A stretch of 35,522 bases of DNA, from positions 1-35,522 of the IMG/VR virus record IMGVR_UViG_3300025853_000293. One strand, given 5' to 3'. Below, in pieces: positions 164 to 35,522 of the stretch (position 1 is its first letter; each line of letters opens with the position of its first letter). The DNA comes from a virus. A model generated the notes under the pieces. The model was not told where the DNA came from, ran no database searches, and saw only the letters and a list, made by a program, of their open reading frames with translations. Both the position numbers and the translations under genes were made by a program.

Positions 164-354
164 GATGAGGAGAGAGAAAGGAGGCTAGCTAGCTAAAGAC
201 GCTCTCCAGTCCCTGGCCGTTCTATGTGGAGCATATGGGCAGTCTCTGGAGAGTTTGGAGAGCATGCCAGAGAGGAGACTCTCCTCTCTCTCGCTCTCTG
301 GCTCTGCCGTCTCCAGGAGCCAGCAGAGGAGAGCCGCTTCAGCTTGGGAGAGTC

Positions 355-1200
355 TCATACTGCCTCCAGAGGAGCGAGGAGCCGCGAGAGCTCCTCAGAG
401 GCAGAGGAGGAGAGGAGCGAGAGGAGGAGAGAGGAGGACGCTCTCTCGACAATCCTCTCCACATCAATCCACTGATCCGGAGAGCTCTGGCTCTGCCAGT
501 ACTCGTTAGCCTCCTCTCTGAGGCTCTCAAAAAGAGAGTAAAGCTGATCAGACTCCAAACTCTCCGTAATCTCCTCCGCAGTCTCATCGCCACAGAGAGA
601 GGAGAGGCGGCTCTCTAGAGCACGTTGGAAGTCTCGCTCTGCCCAGCTCTCCCAGGCTTCAGCCTGAAGCTCTAGCTCTAGAGCTCCGCAGTCATCCTCA
701 TCGAGGACAGGATAATTCTCCAAACTCTGGAGACTCTCTAGGAGCTCATCCGAGAGATAGCGAGGATCGATCGCAATGGAGCGAGAGCCATAGGAGCCGT
801 AAGTCTCTCGACACTGAGGAGAGCCTCCAAACTCCTCTAGCAATACTCTGCAGTTGGAGGCAGTGTGAGGAGCTCCGCAGTAATCGCCAGAAAGAGCGTG
901 ATCTGAAAGCCAGAGGAGAGAGACGCTCTGCCAGAGCCTGCGTTCTGAGATGAGGAGAGCTGCCTCCTCTGGCGAGAGCTTCGTCACAGAGGAGCCGAGA
1001 GACGCGCAGAGAGCTAACGAGTAGCGGTCAAGCTCTCCCATAGAGAGAGAGTCTGCCTCGTTAGGTGAGACGCTCTGCCACTCCAGAGGAGAGCCAGAGC
1101 CAGAGTTAAGGAGTCGCTCTCGTGGCTCATAGAAGTAGAACTCTCCAGAGAGCTCAGAGAGAGACTTGATGCGATCGAGGAGGAGAGAGGAGGAGAGCAT
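355..1200 (-). CDS. Hypothetical protein in GAGAG-saturated DNA
   Basis: This encodes a 281-residue protein of unknown function if the ATG at 1200 is used; a GTG at 1326 would add 42 residues of Leu/Cys/Arg-rich sequence that looks like a composition artefact. The C-terminal part reads like a natural folded protein, with ALESRLSSL, then YSLFESLREEANEYWQ, then QWIDVERIVERA. I recall similar patterns (an AN-YW motif followed by IDVERIV) in phage and plasmid hypothetical proteins, without a known function. Elsewhere the protein is dominated by Ser, Leu, Glu and Arg, because the DNA is packed with GAGAG and CTCTC. It lies 156 bases downstream of the gene at 1357-2118, and both should end at the terminator at 139-163. 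No signal peptide or membrane segment is credible. Confidence 0.6.
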   Translation of the reverse strand: MLSSSLLLDRIKSLSELSGEFYFYEPRERLLNSGSGSPLEWQSVSPNEADSLSMGELDRYSLALCASLGSSVTKLSPEEAALLISERRLWQSVSLLWLSDHALSGDYCGAPHTASNCRVLLEEFGGSPQCRETYGSYGSRSIAIDPRYLSDELLESLQSLENYPVLDEDDCGALELELQAEAWESWAERDFQRALESRLSSLCGDETAEEITESLESDQLYSLFESLREEANEYWQSQSSPDQWIDVERIVERASSSLLLSLLSSSASEELSRLLAPLEAV

Positions 1201-1356
1201 GGTGGAGAGACGGGATGCGGAATAAAGAGAACGGATTGCGTCAGACACGAGACGAGGAGCGAGAGAACGGAGGCAGAACAGGAGGAGGAGATGGCCAGCT
1301 AGGAGGCAGAGGAGGCAGAGCCTCACCCGGCAGAACTGGCCGCAATGGAGAGAGGA

Positions 1357-2118
1357 TCAGCACGAGAGCCACTCCTCGGGAATCTCGACATCGAGCTTCA
1401 CTGCCCATAGGTCTCCGTTCTGGTAGAGAGTCCACTCGTCTCCGTCTCTCTCGCTCCATTGGGCATCCCGGAGGATCGAGTCCCAAGCCTCCCAGTAGCC
1501 TTCAGAGTCCGGCCCGGCTTGGCAGATCAGCACGTCCTCCCAGGAGACGGAGAAATCCTCTGCCTCCTCCTCATCTCCGATCTCATCCGCCCAAAGCTTC
1601 GGGATATAAATCCCGTGAGAGTCTCCTAAGAGGAGCTGAGAGTCGGTATCGGGATTAAAGACCGAGAGGCGCTCCTCCTCCAGAGAGGAGATGAGAGAGG
1701 AGAGCATCTCCTCGGCTCCGACTCTGAAGCCTTCAGAGAGGAGCTCATAGGTAGAGAGCTCAGAGATGCGGCCAGACTCCAGAGCCTCATCACAAGAGGA
1801 GAGACGGTCGGCACGATCTGCAAACCACTGGAGGAGCTCGCAAGTGGCATGCGGCACGAGGTCAAGCGAGAGCTCATCGATCGAGTCCTTAGCCTCCTCC
1901 TCATCGGAGAAGGAGTTAGCGGAGAGATTCGAGAGAGCGTCTCGGATGAGCTCATACCGGGAGTCATTAGGAAGCTCTCCTAGGTGAGCCTCTCTAATTA
2001 CAGAGGACGCCCAACTAGGAGCCGAGGAGGAGAGACGGAGAAAAGGAGAACCATCAGGACGCTCTGCCGTCTCCAGAGAGGAGAGGAGGAGTCCAGCCGT
2101 ATGAGAGAGAGTCGCCAT
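1357..2118 (-). CDS. Conserved hypothetical protein in GAGAG-saturated DNA
   Basis: A 253-residue protein starting with ATG at 2118. The C-terminal hundred residues look like a conserved domain: FNPDTDSQLLLGDSHGIYIP, then KLWADEI, WEDVLICQAGPDSEGYWEAW, and WTLYQNGDLWAVK. I recognise this as a recurrent phage/plasmid family of unknown role (an acidic protein whose DSHGIYIP and AGPD-YWEAW motifs recur). Conserved Trp, Tyr, Asp and Gly are kept, while variable positions are mostly Ser, Leu, Glu and Arg from GAGAG/CTCTC-rich codons. The strong acidity could suit a DNA mimic or antirestriction role, but that is speculation. A 17-base TTTACC-type motif and a hairpin lie directly upstream (2125-2156). 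Confidence 0.7.
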   Translation of the reverse strand: MATLSHTAGLLLSSLETAERPDGSPFLRLSSSAPSWASSVIREAHLGELPNDSRYELIRDALSNLSANSFSDEEEAKDSIDELSLDLVPHATCELLQWFADRADRLSSCDEALESGRISELSTYELLSEGFRVGAEEMLSSLISSLEEERLSVFNPDTDSQLLLGDSHGIYIPKLWADEIGDEEEAEDFSVSWEDVLICQAGPDSEGYWEAWDSILRDAQWSERDGDEWTLYQNGDLWAVKLDVEIPEEWLSC

Positions 2119-2124
2119 CGTTAA

Positions 2125-2156
2125 TAGGTAAAAGGTAAAGCTCTCGCCAGAGAGCT
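2125..2156 (-). promoter_or_regulatory. TTTACC direct-repeat motif and hairpin upstream of the 2118 gene
   Basis: On the minus strand, GCTTTACCTTTTACCTA (2141-2125) lies six bases before the start codon at 2118. The same 17-mer with one mismatch lies at 9490-9506 upstream of the helicase gene. It contains two TTTACC half-sites seven bases apart. Overlapping its upstream end is a perfect 7-bp hairpin, AGCTCTC/GAGAGCT with loop GCCA (2139-2156). A shared operator or leader element is an inference. Confidence 0.45.
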
Positions 2157-2241
2157 CCCAGACAATACAAGAGATAAGGAGGAGAGCCAGGCCAGAGCCG
2201 GCAGAGATAAGGAGAGCCGATAGAGAGACGGCTCCTGGAGC

Positions 2242-4958: not shown

Positions 4959-5661
4959 TGATCAAAGAAAGTTGTTGGTTAAACGCAGCAATCTTTGCTG
5001 ATGGTGGAGCAGACAAAAGCCCAATAGCCATAAAGGCATTACGAACCCAAGGCGTGTTGCCCATAACGATGTACGGGTCTCGATAAGACGCCAAAGCAGA
5101 AAACGGATCCACGCCCTTGCGAATTGCTTCGATCACATCCCACTGAAGAAGCTGCTTGCGAAAGCGATTTCCGTCCTTTGTTCGCTTGCCGCATACATAA
5201 ACCTTGAACGAAGGAAAGAAAATCCCTTTCTCCAGCATGAGCTGCCGATAACCCTCCTCTCGTCCGTCTAGCTCGCCAAGGTCAAAAGTGAGGCTGCCGG
5301 GCTCCGGGATAAGAACGCCAACGGATCGGCGTTCCTGGTTCAACTCATCCTCATAGCGATAGCTGGAGAGGATTTGGCTATGCAGCGCGTTGCGCTCAGA
5401 CCCTGTAACACGAGAGCCACGTTCGAGCAGCGCGCCAAATTCGTAGCTTTCAGCGCGGGTGTCGGTGGGAGACTTTTCCGCTTCAAACGAAAAGCGCGTC
5501 CAGCGACGAACACCAGTTTCCTTTCCAGGGGCAAAAGGCAAGCAAGTGCGGATGAACTGAGCCGATTCAGGGTGATAGGCGATTGTGCAGATATGAGCAC
5601 GCTTACGCCTGCCCTCGATGACGCGCGCCTGGGCTATGCAAACGCAATCTCGAAAGATCAT
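4948..5661 (-). CDS. Hypothetical protein
   Basis: A 237-residue protein I cannot place with confidence. The N terminus (VCIAQARVIEGRRKRAHICT followed by an IRTCLPF-type strand) is beta-rich and reminiscent of OB-type nucleic-acid-binding domains that start with a 'C-I-A-x-(S/A)-R' strand. The middle contains LHSQILSSYRYEDELNQERR, and the C-terminal half carries FFPSFKVYVCGKRTKDGNRF and a helical WDVIEAIRKG. No catalytic motif is evident. Its start overlaps the stop of the DUF4326 gene by four bases, and its stop overlaps the RHH gene, so the three are one translational unit. A nucleic-acid-binding role is speculation. Confidence 0.65.
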   Translation of the reverse strand: MIFRDCVCIAQARVIEGRRKRAHICTIAYHPESAQFIRTCLPFAPGKETGVRRWTRFSFEAEKSPTDTRAESYEFGALLERGSRVTGSERNALHSQILSSYRYEDELNQERRSVGVLIPEPGSLTFDLGELDGREEGYRQLMLEKGIFFPSFKVYVCGKRTKDGNRFRKQLLQWDVIEAIRKGVDPFSALASYRDPYIVMGNTPWVRNAFMAIGLLSAPPSAKIAAFNQQLSLINAF

Positions 5662-6479
5662 GCGTCAGGCCCTTCAAGCTTGCTGACGAGGTAGTCGCCA
5701 TGGCAACGCTGCGGATAACACCAGCAGCCAAGGACCTTGCCTTCGAGTTCGGCAATGCGGGAATGAAGGCTAAATTTCCGAGCAAAGAAAATTTCGTAGG
5801 AATCGCAAACGGTGTCGCGGTCTCCATCTGCAGGCATCTCAAATGGATTACCCCAGTCGCTCTGGCGATCAATGCGAAGGAATCGACCGGTTTGGCGGGC
5901 CCAGGCAAGCAAGGACTGATCCCCATCGGCGTGCATGTTGGCGACGACAGTGCCGCCAGCCTCAACGATTGCCTTGCGCTCCAGCTCTGATTCAGACCAC
6001 TTGGGCTCGACCGATGCGACCGGAGAAGAAGCGGCAGGTTGTGGCTTCGTCTCTTGAACAGCGCGAGTGACGATGGCCTCAGTGAGCTTGCCGCCGTTTT
6101 CCTCCTCGGCAATGTCCTGAGCCTTGGCGTAGGCAGCAACGAGGGTTTCGTCGTCGTTCTTGACAGAGACCAGCGGGCGAAGGTGCGCCTCTGGCATGTC
6201 GCCAATTTTGAAGTTCCGCCCAGATGGGCGGAGGTCTTGCAACTTCGCTTCAACACGGGCGGCCCCGAGCTGCTTTTCAATCGTTCTGGCGTGCAGCTCT
6301 GGAAACTCCTCCATGCAGCAAGCGGCGAAGCTTCGATAGCCGAGAGCCTTCCAGCCTTTGCGGCGATCTAGGTCGTAGACGCGAGCGCGAACGGTGTTGA
6401 TCCCGCGCTTGATGTCGCTGACGGCTTGACGAGCTTCAAGCTCGGTCATGTCGGGAGCGACTGCGATTTCTTCAGCCAT
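5658..6479 (-). CDS. DUF4326 domain protein with N-terminal helical domain
   Basis: A 273-residue protein using the ATG at 6479; upstream in-frame starts would add ten residues without a better ribosome site. Residues 15-80 form a helical region with KGWKALGYRSFAACC, the 'W-x-x-L-G-Y-x-S' pattern seen in phage and plasmid regulators and DUF3102-like proteins. A Lys/Pro/Ala-rich linker covers about 145-165. Residues 200-267 match DUF4326: RIDRQSDWGNPFEMP, DGDRDTV, and GKVLGCWCYPQRCHGDYL, with conserved W-G-N-P-F and C-W-C / C-H-G-D. DUF4326 has no firm biochemical role; nucleic-acid or nucleotide binding is usually suggested. It is preceded by the dyad-rich region 6480-6786, which probably carries its promoter. 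Confidence 0.75.
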   Translation of the reverse strand: MAEEIAVAPDMTELEARQAVSDIKRGINTVRARVYDLDRRKGWKALGYRSFAACCMEEFPELHARTIEKQLGAARVEAKLQDLRPSGRNFKIGDMPEAHLRPLVSVKNDDETLVAAYAKAQDIAEEENGGKLTEAIVTRAVQETKPQPAASSPVASVEPKWSESELERKAIVEAGGTVVANMHADGDQSLLAWARQTGRFLRIDRQSDWGNPFEMPADGDRDTVCDSYEIFFARKFSLHSRIAELEGKVLGCWCYPQRCHGDYLVSKLEGPDA

Positions 6480-26561: not shown

Positions 26562-28799
26562 TCAAATGCCAGCGGCATCCAGGCGTGCTTTCAGTGCAGC
26601 GTTCTCGGCTGCAAGCTCCTTGATGGCATTGACAAGAACAGGCACCAGTGCTTCGCCGTTATAGCGCAGTTTATCTGGATTTTCATTGTCAATAATGACA
26701 GCGTTGTCGTCACCCTCCAGTGCCAGGATGTCCTGCGCTTTGAAGCCATAGCGTACAGGGCCGTGAGGAATATCAGTATCTCGATCTTCCTTGAACTGGA
26801 ACGCGACAGGGTTGAGCTGCTTGACGAAATCAAGCCCGTGAGGAACAAGATCAAAGTTGGTTTTATCTCGTTCGTCTGAAACAACCGTCCACGCAACTTG
26901 GATGTAAGCATTGGTGACAGCAGTGCTGCCAACTACCACGCGGTTGTTCTCGGTAGTGCAGTCGAAGACTGGGGCGTAGGCGCCAGCGCTGTTCAGACTG
27001 CCGAGACAAATGTTGCCTGCGCCAGTGGTGTTGTTGAAGAGGGCGCTGACTCCGTTGGCAGTGTTGCCTGCGCCAGTGGTGTTGGAGTAGAGGGCTTGGA
27101 GTCCGTTAGCAGTGTTTCTGTTGCCAGTGGTGTTGTTGAAGAGGGCTTCGAGTCCGTTAGCAGTGTTGTTTACGCCAGTGGTGTTGGAGTAGAGGGCGTT
27201 GACTCCGTTAGCAGTGTTGTTTATGCCAGCGGTGTTGGAGTAGAGGGCTTGGAGTCCGTTAGCAGTGTTGCTGTTGCCAGTGGTGTTGGAGTAGAGGGCG
27301 GTGAATCCGTTAGCAGTGTTGCTGTTGCCAGTGGTATTTGCCCGAAGCGCATAGCTGCCGACTGCTGTATTGGTGCTAATCGCGCCTGCGCCACGACCAA
27401 CGGTGATGCTGTTTACCAGTTCGGAAGCTACTTCTAGAGAACCAGAGGAATCAACCGATACTTGGCTGGTGCCATTGCTTTGAAGATCAAAAAGCTTACT
27501 ACCAGCAGCACTAGCAGTATCAGTTACATTAACTTTTAAGCCGGTGTATGCAATAGCAGCATTTGTCCAGTCGAGACTGACATTTAGATCTGCAGTGCCA
27601 GCCAACGCGCCGGAGCTGTTGTACTGGATGTTGCCGGTTGCTCCAGAGACAAGGCCGACGGTGCCGGTTTGGTCTGGGAAGCTGATCGTGCGGTTGGCGG
27701 TTGGGGTGACCGATTGAATTGTGGTCGAGAAATTGCCGCCACTGTCAAGGTTCAGATCACCCTTGACCGTTGCAGTGCCAGGGTCGGCATTGCTGACGCC
27801 AACGGTGAGTTCGTTGGTGGTCTTGTTGAAGGTCAGGCCGGTGTCACCGCCAGCGCCACCGTTGTCGTTGAATTGGACCTGAGTGTCTGCGCCAGCCATG
27901 ACGCCTGGCGGTGCATGCCAAGTGCCGTCTGCGCGAAGGAAATTTGTAGTGCCGCCACCACTGCCGCCAACCAGGCCGGCATTCGTTGAATCAAATACCG
28001 GCACTGTTGCGTCAGTGCCAGTGTCAGAATTGACCGTGCCGTCAGTTGCGCTAGCCGTATAAGAAAGGTTTGTGGAGCCCGGTGGAATGTTCCATGTGCC
28101 ATCAGCACGCAGGAAGTTTGCAGTTCCACCGCCACTGCCGTGGACAAGGCCGGCATCAGTAGAGGTGAATTTGGGGATTGTTGCATCAGTTCCAGTGCTG
28201 GAATTGATGGTGCCGGTCGTTGCGGCAGTTGCGTAGGTGAGGTCGGTGGTTCCTGGAGGATTAGTCCAAGTGCCATCTGCGCGGAGGAAATTATCAGTAC
28301 CGCCGCCACTTGCTCCAGCCAGGCCGGCATTAGTGCTTGTGAAACCGGGGATTGTGGCGTTGGTGCCGGTGGAAGAGGTAACTTCGCCGCTGCTTGCACC
28401 AGAGATATAGCCGAGGTTGGCCGTACCGGCCATGTCCATCGGGATCCACTCGCTGTTTGCGTTGTCCCACGCAAGCGCTTGACCGTTGGTTGGCGGAGTT
28501 GTGGTTGTATCTACATCCGTCAGCGCGTCGATGCTGGCGTTGAGATTGAGAGTTACGTTTCCGCTGGTGCCGCCTCCGCTAAGTCCTGTACCAGCAGTTA
28601 CGCCCGTAATGTTGCCAATAGGTGCGTCAGCCCACTGGGTGTCGTAATCGGTATTGCTTACTTTTTCGAGGATTTGACCAGTCGTGCCACCGGTGGGTAC
28701 GCCGACACCGGCTGCGCCACCAGCGCCTTGGTGGCCGGGTACTGCCAACGTCAGCTCTGTATTCTTTGCGCTGATTACGGCAATTTGTACTTCCGACAT
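26562..28799 (-). CDS. Tail fibre with YadA-like repeats and S74 intramolecular chaperone
   Basis: A 745-residue fibre. Residues 126-300 contain three 58-residue repeats with NFLRADGTW and PPG; residues 488-589 hold six 17-residue repeats of the type NTTGNSNTANGLQALYS, resembling YadA-head/LbR left-handed beta rolls. The C-terminal 105 residues are an S74 peptidase domain: SDERDKTNFDLVPHGLDFVK (S641, with the conserved S-D-x-R-x-K), LNPVAFQFK, YGFKAQDILAL, and a final coiled coil AENAALKARLD. Such a domain trimerises the fibre and cleaves itself off. Probable receptor-binding long or side tail fibre. Confidence 0.88.
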   Translation of the reverse strand: MSEVQIAVISAKNTELTLAVPGHQGAGGAAGVGVPTGGTTGQILEKVSNTDYDTQWADAPIGNITGVTAGTGLSGGGTSGNVTLNLNASIDALTDVDTTTTPPTNGQALAWDNANSEWIPMDMAGTANLGYISGASSGEVTSSTGTNATIPGFTSTNAGLAGASGGGTDNFLRADGTWTNPPGTTDLTYATAATTGTINSSTGTDATIPKFTSTDAGLVHGSGGGTANFLRADGTWNIPPGSTNLSYTASATDGTVNSDTGTDATVPVFDSTNAGLVGGSGGGTTNFLRADGTWHAPPGVMAGADTQVQFNDNGGAGGDTGLTFNKTTNELTVGVSNADPGTATVKGDLNLDSGGNFSTTIQSVTPTANRTISFPDQTGTVGLVSGATGNIQYNSSGALAGTADLNVSLDWTNAAIAYTGLKVNVTDTASAAGSKLFDLQSNGTSQVSVDSSGSLEVASELVNSITVGRGAGAISTNTAVGSYALRANTTGNSNTANGFTALYSNTTGNSNTANGLQALYSNTAGINNTANGVNALYSNTTGVNNTANGLEALFNNTTGNRNTANGLQALYSNTTGAGNTANGVSALFNNTTGAGNICLGSLNSAGAYAPVFDCTTENNRVVVGSTAVTNAYIQVAWTVVSDERDKTNFDLVPHGLDFVKQLNPVAFQFKEDRDTDIPHGPVRYGFKAQDILALEGDDNAVIIDNENPDKLRYNGEALVPVLVNAIKELAAENAALKARLDAAGI
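27033..27338 (-). repeat. Six 51-bp (17-residue) repeats in the fibre gene
   Basis: Six in-frame units of 17 residues (residues 488-589), with a partial seventh, share NTTG-x-x-NTANG-x-x-AL-[YF]-[SN]. The two residues after NANG and the pair after NTTG vary between units. The DNA period is 51 bp. The repeat number sets the length of a beta-roll segment and could change by recombination. Confidence 0.9.
27900..28424 (-). repeat. Three 174-bp (58-residue) repeats in the fibre gene
   Basis: Three units each carry an STGT(N/D)AT(I/V)P segment, GLxxxSGGGT, NFLRADGTW and a terminal PPG (NFLR at residues 170, 228 and 286). The spacing is exactly 58 residues between NFLR positions. They resemble tail-fibre knob modules described in other phages. 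Confidence 0.85.
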
Positions 28800-30669: not shown

Positions 30670-33143
30670 CAGGTGATACCAGTGCCGGTAATGACGAATG
30701 TATTAGCAGCCACGCAGAGGATAGTGGCAACGCCGTAATTGGCGAGTGTGCGAGTGCCCGTTGTTGTTTGGCCGCCGGTACGAAGAGTTACACCAGCGCC
30801 TTGAACAATTTGCTGTGAATTTGTCGAGTTATTGAAAATAGTTACGTTGTCGCCAATAGAGAAAACCGATGCAGGCACCGTCACACCACCAGAGCTGATG
30901 CTGATGTGCTTTCCTGAATCACTTGCGATAAGCGTATAAGCCGCACTTTTAGGATTTTGCGGAATCCTTCGTATAGATCCGATGCCATCGCTAATCGCTC
31001 CTGTTGTTGAAATGCCGCCAGTTGTGCTAATAACTGTTGAACCACCAATGGTTCCGCTGGTGATTGCGCTTCCGCTTACTTTGCCGGCAGTTGTAATTGT
31101 GTTTAACTTTGTGTCCGCAATCGCGGCATTAGCGTTAATGTCTGCGTTTGTAATGGTGTTGGTCAGATTTAGCTTTGACTTGGCGATGGCTGCGCCTGCG
31201 TTGATGTCGTTATTTACAATTCCGCCGGCCAGATTTAATTTAGTGTAAACAATTCCTGCGGATGCGTTAATATCGGCATTCAAAATTGAGTTTGTAAGGT
31301 TTAATTTACTGTAGGCAATTTCTGCGTTTGTTGCTACGTCTGCGTTAGCAATAGATCCTGTAGTTGTAACTTGGTCAAAGCTGATGTCTCCCGCAAGCAT
31401 CTGTGCGGTAACTGTCCCAGTGTCACCAGTAGTAACTACAGTGCCGCTTACGTTTGGCAGCGTAATTGTGCGGTTTGCCGTTGGATCAGCAACCGTAAGC
31501 GTTGTCTTGTTTGAGTTGGCAGTTGTCCCATCGAACTTGAAACTGCCTGTTGCACCAATCTCAAGCGTGCCGGTAATTGTTGCGCCAGTTGTTCTTACGC
31601 TTTCGTTGTAAACCTCTTCAACCGCCGCTTGGACATCGGTGGCCTGGATAAGGCTAAACGGAGTAAACGAGATGTTTGCCGCTGTGTTGCCTGTGATGGT
31701 TCCAGAAATATCAATAAGCTGCCAAGTTGCGCTTTGACCGTCAGAAAGCAGTTGGTCGGGCGCGTTTAGGGAAACAGTCGGTACATAAGTACCTGCTCCT
31801 GTGCCTGAGTTTGCGACGACAAAATAATACTGATTGTTTTGCGTGCTTGGTTGCGGGAGTGTACCCCCTACGCTTAGTCCCAAGCCGGCGCCGGCTGCGC
31901 TAAGTGATTCAATGTTGTTTGCTGCTGCGTCGTAGATGCCAGCGAAAATAAGCTCGCCGCTGGTTACTGTTACCGGGATCCAAGCGGAGCCGTCCCAGAT
32001 GTAAAGGTCGCCTCTGCCAACGTCGTAGAAAAACTGACCCTTAAAGTCTGCGCTTGGGAAGATTGTGACTTGAGCGGTTGTTCCAGGTCCGCCGAACTGA
32101 GTTACGGCGTCGTCCGCAATGGCAGAACCAGGCACTGTGTTGGTGCCGAAGACTGCTGAAGCCAGTACGCCCGAGGTCAGCTTTTCTGCTGGAATATCTG
32201 GAATGTCATCTTCTGTGAGTGTGGCGCCGTTGGTTACATGACCTTGAGCATCAAACGTAATCTTGGTTGCAGTACCTGCGGTGACTGCATTTGTGTGATT
32301 TAGAACGCCGGCATTGGTGACGCTGAGGCCAGTGCCGGGTTGGACTGCACCAGTTGCGCTGGCGGTTGCATTGGGTAGATCTTCAGATTCAATTGCCCGG
32401 CTGCCGTTTACCAAGCCTTTTGAGTCATGCGTAACGACCGAAAAAGTGCTGGTTGCGGTGACATCGTTGTCAAGCTCCAGCGTTTCGCCGTCTACTCGCA
32501 GACCTTCAGCATTGACAATGATCGCGCCCTTTGCGGTGTTGGTTGCAGTGGGTAGGTCAGAACCAACAATTTGACGGCCGCTTACTTCACCGCCGCTTCC
32601 AGCAGGTCCAGCAAGAAAGATGCCGCCGCTTGGCGTGACCTGCGGATTAACGGAAAGAGTTGCTGTGTCGCCAACCGTCGAAACAGAAATACGGATGGGG
32701 CCAGCAGTTGTAGCGACTAGCTGGTTGATCGATCCAGCGGCCTTGAAGCTGACCCAGCTGCTGCCGTCCCAGACATAGGCTTTGTTAGTTTCGGTTTCAA
32801 CTGCAAGCTGACCAGCAAAGACGCCAGTAGCGGGCAGGGATGTTACAAGCCGTGCGCTGGAATTGTCTGCAAGTTTGGTGGAATCAACTGCACCGGAGGC
32901 AATTTGATCGCTACCTACTGCACCGTTTACAAATGCACCACCAGGGATTGTCTGTGAGTCAAATAAAATTTTTGCGCTTGGGATTACGTCGTCAGAAAGC
33001 TGGGTTACTGCTTTATTAAGGAAGTCAACAACGGTTACCTTTTTGGTCTCGCTTGCAGACCGATCAGCAATCGGCAGAAAATCGTTGGAAGCTACATCCG
33101 CAGAGGCCAGGCTGTTTAGCTCACTAATCCGAAGATCTGCCAC
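30669..33143 (-). CDS. Large tail fibre protein with heptad-like repeats
   Basis: An 824-residue fibre. The N terminus (MADLRISELNSLASADVASN, then FLPIADRSASETKKVTVVDF) is the typical cyanophage fibre attachment segment. The middle has Gly/Val/Thr-rich strands and small domains (VWDGSSWVSFKA at about 123-134; YIWDGSAWIPV at about 372-382), both with aromatic-Asp-Gly-Ser motifs. Residues about 600-687 contain four 22-residue repeats NADINAxAxIxxSKLNLTNTI. The C-terminal strand region (ITLPNVSGTVV earlier, VFVIxGTG-type end) is beta-helical. It is the main long fibre. Confidence 0.85.
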   Translation of the reverse strand: MADLRISELNSLASADVASNDFLPIADRSASETKKVTVVDFLNKAVTQLSDDVIPSAKILFDSQTIPGGAFVNGAVGSDQIASGAVDSTKLADNSSARLVTSLPATGVFAGQLAVETETNKAYVWDGSSWVSFKAAGSINQLVATTAGPIRISVSTVGDTATLSVNPQVTPSGGIFLAGPAGSGGEVSGRQIVGSDLPTATNTAKGAIIVNAEGLRVDGETLELDNDVTATSTFSVVTHDSKGLVNGSRAIESEDLPNATASATGAVQPGTGLSVTNAGVLNHTNAVTAGTATKITFDAQGHVTNGATLTEDDIPDIPAEKLTSGVLASAVFGTNTVPGSAIADDAVTQFGGPGTTAQVTIFPSADFKGQFFYDVGRGDLYIWDGSAWIPVTVTSGELIFAGIYDAAANNIESLSAAGAGLGLSVGGTLPQPSTQNNQYYFVVANSGTGAGTYVPTVSLNAPDQLLSDGQSATWQLIDISGTITGNTAANISFTPFSLIQATDVQAAVEEVYNESVRTTGATITGTLEIGATGSFKFDGTTANSNKTTLTVADPTANRTITLPNVSGTVVTTGDTGTVTAQMLAGDISFDQVTTTGSIANADVATNAEIAYSKLNLTNSILNADINASAGIVYTKLNLAGGIVNNDINAGAAIAKSKLNLTNTITNADINANAAIADTKLNTITTAGKVSGSAITSGTIGGSTVISTTGGISTTGAISDGIGSIRRIPQNPKSAAYTLIASDSGKHISISSGGVTVPASVFSIGDNVTIFNNSTNSQQIVQGAGVTLRTGGQTTTGTRTLANYGVATILCVAANTFVITGTGIT
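31083..31346 (-). repeat. Four 66-bp (22-residue) repeats in the fibre gene
   Basis: Four in-frame units with the pattern N-x-D-[IV]-x-A-x-A-x-I-x-x-[ST]-K-L-N-[LT]; the last is partly diverged (DTKLNTITTAG). The coiled or beta-helical spacer length depends on copy number. The same repeat type is known in long tail fibres of T5-like and cyanophage origin. Confidence 0.85.
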
Positions 33144-34538: not shown

Positions 34539-35522
34539 ACACTGATTAGCCGCACACGGGCGTTGCTAACGCCAGGGCGCACGTTGGTAATTTCTGGCGG
34601 CTCGGCGTAACGCCATGATCCAATCGGTTGCAGCTTATCGGCCTGTCTGGTTACAGGGTCGCTTCCCGTAGGAATGTAAGAACTTACCGAAACACCTCTT
34701 TCAACTTGAGGACCCCATGCATAAAATTCATCGCCAGCCCTCGTCGGCCTTCCAGAAACTATAAAATCAAAATCTACAAAAGATCTTGTGGCTACTACTT
34801 CTACTGGCACGACAGCCCTGACCCACTTATTAAAAACTGAATAATCGATGCTAGAGCCTCTGTCAACATTAAAAAAATCGCTTTTTATGAGCCAGCTTGA
34901 AATAGAGGACTGGCTCGGGACGTAAATGTAAATACTTACAAAATACTGCCCTGGCTCAAATGATCCGTTAATTCTTGTAAATCCACTGCCTGCTACTGGG
35001 TTTTTATTAATAAACCTAGAAACTTCAGTCAGCTTATTGTCAGGACCGAGGAGATCTGAAGCGCTTATATCCCAGTTAAAGCTAAAAATTCCCGCAGTCA
35101 AACTTGTGCTGTTTGTAAATAAATTTGTAGCTTCATCCTCTATAAGCAGACCAATGGGGTGCCCAGTTTCAGTTTCATAGCTAAATCTAGTTTCAAATGG
35201 CTGTGCGGTAACGATAAAGCCGTCTTGGTCTATGTAAGTAGCAATGCTGTTTCGTTGATTTCTATAACCAGTACCAATCAGCTGAGCGTTTCCGCTCCAG
35301 CCCTCAATTAAACGAAGAGGAAGCTCAAAAGTACCGAAGGTCCCTTTTACGTTTTCGTAGTGCCCAACAAACGTCTGCGCGTTTTTATCTGTAAGGTTTT
35401 GGTATTGCAGCTCTAGCGTGGCACCGAACCTTGTGTCTCCGTACAGAATTCGACTTTCTGCGCCGGATTGCGATCTAAATGTTCGGACTGCGTAATCGCC
35501 AGACGTGTAGCTGCGAGAAGAC
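34532..35522 (-). CDS. Tail protein with carbohydrate-binding-like module, cut by the window edge
   Basis: The frame is open from the window edge through 35101 to the stop at 34532, giving 329 visible residues; the N terminus lies outside. The visible start reads SYTSGDYAVRTFRSQSGAES, then RILYGDTRFGATLELQYQNL and HYENVKGTFGTFELP, a minor-tail pattern. Then FSYETETGHPIGLLIEDEAT introduces the module FYAWGPQVERGVSVSSYIPT with RQAD, the same as in the 23975 gene. It is probably a tail protein adjoining the tube; the carbohydrate module is appended. A TTG at 35101 would be an internal artefact, not the start. Confidence 0.75.
   Translation of the reverse strand, partial: SSRSYTSGDYAVRTFRSQSGAESRILYGDTRFGATLELQYQNLTDKNAQTFVGHYENVKGTFGTFELPLRLIEGWSGNAQLIGTGYRNQRNSIATYIDQDGFIVTAQPFETRFSYETETGHPIGLLIEDEATNLFTNSTSLTAGIFSFNWDISASDLLGPDNKLTEVSRFINKNPVAGSGFTRINGSFEPGQYFVSIYIYVPSQSSISSWLIKSDFFNVDRGSSIDYSVFNKWVRAVVPVEVVATRSFVDFDFIVSGRPTRAGDEFYAWGPQVERGVSVSSYIPTGSDPVTRQADKLQPIGSWRYAEPPEITNVRPGVSNARVRLISVV

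Follow-up and report, generated by a model that had tools for sequence, protein, structure and literature searches.

Certain short words are over-used in microbial genomes, tolerated within genes and favoured at synonymous positions. Chi sites, DNA uptake sequences, the HIP1 (highly iterated palindrome) element of cyanobacteria, KOPS (FtsK orienting polar sequences) and clusters of parS are examples; their words are 5-16 bp long and are spread genome-wide or gathered in small clusters. Here we describe a case in which a word of only three bases, GAG with its complement CTC, saturates a 2-kb operon in a 35,522-bp virus record, apparently partial, from the IMG/VR database (IMGVR_UViG_3300025853_000293, the whole of which is referred to as the window). 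To our knowledge there is no known mobile operon saturated with one trinucleotide, and literature searches covering open-licence papers yielded no description of one.

Within positions 160-2240 of the window, termed the island, 43% of the bases lie in a GAG or CTC word, compared with 8% across the remaining window. The pentamers GAGAG and CTCTC are seen 90 times in 131-2240, where 2.8 would be predicted from their frequency in the remainder of the window, and their counts in the 500-bp bins from 1 to 2500 are 27, 18, 22, 16 and 11, with all later bins holding 0-5. A first-pass annotation, made from the sequence alone, had reported GAGAG/CTCTC saturation over about 2 kb, eight matches within 241-300, and a sharp end near 2240 with nothing similar elsewhere in the window, all of which was borne out by recounting. 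The right edge is abrupt, near 2240, with a conserved GATAAG element and a tandem array next to it, while the left edge is formed by an intrinsic terminator on the minus strand. The two genes of that annotation (P1 and P2) are present, but a third, P3, had been missed. The cassette and its surroundings are laid out as follows.

1-127, no strand assigned: tandem array downstream of the terminator, 25 bp x 5.1, reaching the contig end
139-163, minus strand: intrinsic terminator GGCTCCCAACTGGGAGCC plus TTTTTTT, which closes the operon (placed at 163-146 as the left edge of the island)
160-2240, no strand assigned: GAG.CTC-saturated domain (the island)
185-358, minus strand: P3, 57 aa, start codon overlapping the P1 stop (ATGA)
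355-1200, minus strand: P1, conserved core of about 281 aa (open frame 355-1326), part of which matches phrog_3906, a family of unknown function
1357-2118, minus strand: P2, 253 aa, with the C-terminal 90 aa or so in phrog_21544, a family of unknown function (DSHGIYIP...YWEAW...GDLW)
2245-2303, no strand assigned: conserved upstream element, GATAAG and CTTATC 53 bp apart (gene orientation)
2322-2517, no strand assigned: tandem arrays upstream of the operon, 25 bp x 5.6 and then 26 bp x 2.7

Synonymous controls (1000 trials each) were carried out in two ways. When the two proteins were rewritten in the codon usage of the window's genome, 5.7 and 3.2 pentamers were obtained on average, compared with 42 and 26 observed; when the synonymous codons of each gene were permuted among themselves, the figures rose to 20.0 (maximum 32) and 14.0 (maximum 24). 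Since the observed counts exceed even those from a gene's own codons, the choice of a codon must depend on its neighbours. In P1, CTC is spread over all three codon frames (31/24/35). Amongst the carrier phages described below, the coding-strand ratio of GAG to CTC ranges from about 0.5 to 1.4 between types with both words enriched throughout (locus L010, whose orientation is reversed, was omitted), as expected if strand does not matter. The word behaves as in an array of sites, being over-represented independently of codon usage, frame and strand.

The unit of the signal was determined with a score that expresses the synonymous gain in word count over random codons as a fraction of the maximum attainable. 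Averaged over eight island genes, the score is 0.65 for GAG/CTC, 0.38 for the next trinucleotide (AGA/TCT) and 0.53 for the best tetranucleotide, so that no other di-, tri- or tetranucleotide word tested comes as close to its maximum as GAG/CTC. GAGAG itself occurs in islands at 1.7-2.5 times the dinucleotide expectation and at 0.94-1.19 times the trinucleotide expectation. Because the pentamer fits the trinucleotide expectation and GAG/CTC lies nearest its synonymous maximum, the unit is GAG.CTC, and the pentamer, which had been put forward as the over-used unit, is rejected in that role. Individual island genes score 0.51-0.75, the exception being the P1 of contig G011 at 0.28. By comparison, remote homologues without an island score -0.16 to 0.12, 257 control genes from two Cyanobiaceae genomes have a mean of about 0 and a maximum of 0.18, and 123 non-island genes of five carrier phages do not exceed 0.17.

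The proteins themselves seem to have been affected. In the variable columns of the P2 C-terminal domain, Ser, Leu, Glu and Arg together make up 40% in island proteins versus 26% in remote homologues, and the conserved motifs have been retained despite this shift. To judge by this alignment, amino acids too have yielded to the word pressure in this domain. This agrees with the first-pass annotation, which had seen conserved motifs kept while variable positions turned to these four residues; homologues of the same composition encoded without GAGAG, which it had named as a counter-indication, are not what is found, nor do the counts fit dinucleotide or codon composition, both of which they exceed. 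Its proposal that a DNA-level pressure shapes the codons therefore survives as a nucleic-acid-level pressure beyond codon usage and protein need, though not with the pentamer as its unit.

Homology searches of IMG/VR recovered 13 more contigs with an island, and every record scanned in full had a single copy; two pairs of contigs are nearly identical across their shared stretch, so these represent about 11 further lineages. About a dozen separate metagenomic contigs carry intact frames, which rules out an assembly artefact. The carriers are cyanosiphophages of three types that have little else in common.

Type A: relatives of Synechococcus phage S-CBS4, 75 kb
Type B: relatives of S-LBS1, 55-58 kb
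Type C: the window, with a primase 58% identical to that of S-H1

These three isolates are the nearest found (TerL 45% identical to S-LBS1, RNR 77% to S-CBS4), but they have neither the island nor a P1 or P2 homologue. Between the window and its closest relative, G002, the alignment is limited to the 5% of the window that is the island, at 80.7% nucleotide identity. The cassette is also mosaic: the P2 of G001 is 94% identical to that of G002, whereas its P1 is only 57% identical to that of G002 and 86% to that of G008. Sequence comparison thus indicates that genes inside the cassette have recombined, and that P2-P1-P3 is a horizontally mobile operon passed among otherwise unrelated picocyanobacterial siphophages. 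The relatives of these phages suggest Synechococcus or Cyanobium as hosts.

A pattern independent of homology, which was found in 10 of 14 GAG-rich domains (the 13 phage islands and locus L246, see below), matched 27 IMG/VR loci, and every one of these with a real island carried P1/P2; GAG saturation as a general feature of viral DNA is accordingly rejected. An origin in the style of the host genome is also rejected: samples from two Cyanobiaceae genomes contain GAGAG at the expected frequency, and neither 300 genomes of that family nor a scan of GTDB contigs yielded a relative of P2. The island adjoins terS/terL in type B, whereas terL lies about 8 kb away in the type A phage G008, and no terminase match was obtained in the partial window record. 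A packaging signal is made less probable by this difference in position between types.

Saturation has persisted after synonymous sites largely turned over. Where codons of the window and G006 differ (proteins 51-58% identical), GAG coverage is still 0.19-0.45, compared with 0.08 genome-wide. In four pairs of islands, synonymous differences at GAG-covered and other codons were 9.8/30.1% (G008/G009), 22.1/39.4%, 19.4/50.9% and 49.5/61.2% (G006/G011), whereas in flanking genes codons touching GAG/CTC and other codons differed equally (15.2/14.8%, 45.4/44.1%, 41.5/38.8% and 36.8/37.1%). In three comparisons fewer words were lost than random placement would give, and in a fourth the two were equal. 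Low synonymous change in GAG words cannot by itself separate selection from biased copying, because a strongly biased copying process at equilibrium gives the same result.

A second case was found outside phages. Pattern searches took in up to 400 Cyanobiaceae genomes each, with part of the loci inspected. Amongst these loci there was one GAG-rich region, in an integrative element on contig 29 of genome G182 (L246, 5250-10500), and a second pattern run on 400 genomes returned only the same element among 30 loci inspected. The element has a phage-integrase gene and, close to a glutamine synthetase gene (named by reading), one for a PriCT-2/AAA_25 primase-helicase of 884 aa. The primase-helicase gene has an attainable-gain score of 0.43-0.46 (relatives in other genomes, at most 0.19) and a GAG coverage of 0.289, above the maximum of 0.245 over permutations of its own codons, and its most enriched tetranucleotides are identical to those of the phage islands. 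The domain is moderate in strength and stops inside this gene, ahead of the C-terminal tail. As the element has no gene in common with the cassette, this single case suggests that the pressure is not tied to P1-P3.

Six-base palindromes provide a further view of word use. In the window (2885-35101) and in G001-G011 outside the islands, TTCGAA, ACGCGT, GTGCAC, CCCGGG, CTCGAG and GAGCTC are strongly avoided, as expected under restriction pressure. GAGCTC was seen 9 times in 388 kb outside islands, where 101-118 were expected, and S-CBS4 and S-H1 likewise avoid it. Inside islands it is the sole one of the six that is freely used, with 140 copies in 25.7 kb, matching composition. CTCGAG, by contrast, has 0 occurrences there against 28 expected from trinucleotides, and selection against particular words must therefore operate within islands.

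Based on profile searches, the P2 C-terminal domain belongs to phrog_21544, which matches residues 162-250 (E 2.2e-9, profile positions 8-93 of 110); the DSHGIYIP, GPD..YWEAW and GDLW motifs are conserved, and G169, P173, Y208, W209 and W212 are invariant in an alignment of 40 sequences. The best viral matches of P2 are uncharacterised proteins. phrog_3906 matches P1 residues 155-241 (E 5.1e-8), spanning only positions 100-186 of 270. Neither of the AlphaFold2 models (predicted local distance difference test, pLDDT, 90 for P2 and 82.5 for P1) had a PDB match at E<=0.001. P3, for which a Pfam search gave no match, was judged by eye to be related to a small open reading frame that separates P2 from P1 in type A phages and G006; by reading, its position varies among lineages.

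The 53-bp spacing of GATAAG and CTTATC is kept in the window, G001, G002, G003, G005, G008 and G009, and the copy in G006 is degenerate. Several relatives have a hairpin-plus-T stretch after the last island gene. Tandem arrays, mostly of different sequence, flank the cassettes of most relatives; several have units of 24-26 bp, and some contigs break within them. They were located as follows.

G001, 48203-48871
G002, 5347-5764
G003, 6147-6463
G006, 32706-33047 and 35168-35418
G011, 55964-56115

The island of the window is not simple-sequence (microsatellite) DNA, as long pure tandem runs of the unit are not present; Tandem Repeats Finder detected no array within 166-2240, and only short, imperfect arrays were seen in relatives. 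Elsewhere in the window, 51-bp repeats (27011-27335, 6.4 copies) lie within a virion structural or tail gene. In type A phages, HNH-like proteins, recognised by motif, are encoded on the other strand immediately past the downstream end of the island (L002 7146-7736, L005 6209-6703). By reading, G009 and also G010 have a possible small membrane-protein gene upstream of P2 that is GAG-rich; the counterpart leader in G008 is not. Scans for tRNAs and Rfam families gave nothing usable.

The explanation that we tentatively prefer, while regarding it as far from secure, is that the operon is mobile and has been under long-standing GAG.CTC pressure, with the words acting in cis on double-stranded DNA as a code for a reader of short sites. 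A role at the level of double-stranded DNA is favoured since the words occupy both strands and every frame, since the strand ratio drifts without loss of the enrichment, and since the cassette retains its style in unrelated genomes. A putative reader protein would recognise a very short site, and the 2 kb of coding DNA would double as a high-density docking or initiation platform, where a cluster of many weak sites might load a factor on the cassette alone. The control or boundary region of this platform could then consist of the GATAAG-53-CTTATC element together with the flanking arrays. Enzymes that read bare trinucleotides include DnaG-type primases, some methyltransferases and readers of the CRISPR protospacer-adjacent motif, and these would be the natural candidates for such a factor. 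A more specific version, which we consider doubtful, is that the coding sequence forms a platform of hundreds of GAG.CTC sites for such a three-base-reading enzyme (e.g. a primase, methyltransferase or defence component), and that the same code has been imposed on the replication gene of the unrelated picocyanobacterial integrative element.

Several observations weigh against a cis-acting code on DNA. The domain coincides closely with the transcription unit, which fits a role in RNA equally well, and the signature was found in one genome only of the host family among the loci inspected. No reader protein was identified, and the models of P1 and P2 resemble no solved fold. Beyond codon periodicity, the words show only 2- and 3-base contacts (GAGAG, GAGGAG) and no longer-range site architecture. 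The P1 of G011 is poorly saturated, the P2 pair of G001 and G002 shows no constraint (18 words lost, 17.3 expected), and among polarised substitutions the losses of GAG words outnumber the gains (e.g. 36 against 16), although outgroup parsimony overcounts losses of a common state. Present-day selection may be weak or uneven.

A mutational or copying process specific to the cassette (error-prone repair, slippage or template-directed conversion) might instead write GAG.CTC, in which case the words need no function. We consider this unlikely. Several observations fit it: the equilibrium of a biased process likewise produces low synonymous change in GAG words, non-GAG codons of the island outpace flanking genes in two pairs (30.1% vs 14.8% and 50.9% vs 38.8%), the correlation between words peaks at 2 and 3 bases as in cryptic simplicity made by slippage, and both the tandem arrays around most islands and the gene-level mosaicism, which shows recombination in the cassette, are in keeping with it. 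Such a process would, however, have to act on one stretch of about 2 kb with sharp edges in three unrelated phage backgrounds without leaving long pure repeats; the cassette has no evident gene for a reverse transcriptase or mutator, and the absence of CTCGAG from islands does not fit.

Pressure on the mRNA, with GAG and CUC words pairing or binding an RNA-binding protein to give a structured or protected transcript, seems to us rather improbable but is a serious rival because of the match between domain and transcription unit. The domain spans from near the conserved upstream element to the terminator, and in G002 and G008 it ends at the P1 stop codon. Compared with synonymous permutations, the island transcripts of six genes also have more stable folds (z -1.1 to -4.0, mean about -2.6); the excess is modest, given that control genes of the window average -1.3 with one at -4.7. 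Moreover, GAG:CTC is not close to 1:1 in type A, and no Rfam family is matched.

It is quite improbable that the islands are the relic of an old event, either a simple-sequence origin or one burst of conversion, which spread by transfer and is now slowly decaying. The excess of losses over gains among polarised changes and the low score of the G011 P1 would agree with decay, but lineages at 48-58% protein identity still stand at 0.51-0.75 of the maximum, the codons at which the window and G006 differ are still rich in GAG in either genome, and losses are fewer than random placement predicts in most comparisons. That ordinary codon usage or protein composition makes the words is hardly credible, even though Ser, Leu and Glu are abundant in the proteins (16, 16 and 13%), as genome codon usage yields about 1/7 of the pentamers seen and permutation of a gene's own codons about 1/2, remote homologues lack the Ser/Leu/Glu/Arg excess, and the attainable-gain scores also contradict it.

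Genes at two thirds of the maximum density of a three-base word are not expected unless the word acts or something keeps writing it, and near-maximal GAG/CTC density within a protein code points to a second message in the same DNA. A module that crosses unrelated viruses of abundant picocyanobacteria, and is echoed in a mobile element of the hosts, suggests an unknown process at the DNA or RNA level in those hosts. The fraction of attainable synonymous gain cleanly separates saturated regions from ordinary genes, and could be applied to all sequenced genomes.

The relationship of the cassette to known systems can be drawn at three levels. Relatives of both phrog_21544 and phrog_3906 lie close together in a remote locus (L009/L031), as P2 and P1 do in the cassette; there they are written in ordinary DNA, and P2 and P1 have extra domains. 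Diversity-generating retroelements and other forms of targeted mutagenesis similarly limit sequence change to one short coding region, but the bias of the cassette is not adenine-specific and its reading frames are conserved; no reverse transcriptase was detected among about 29 window proteins in a PHROGs scan and no template repeat was found in the window, relatives having been scanned non-exhaustively. Finally, unlike the words of Chi, DNA uptake, HIP1, KOPS and parS, that of the cassette is 3 bp long and is confined, within the phage genome, to one mobile 2-kb operon, which it fills.
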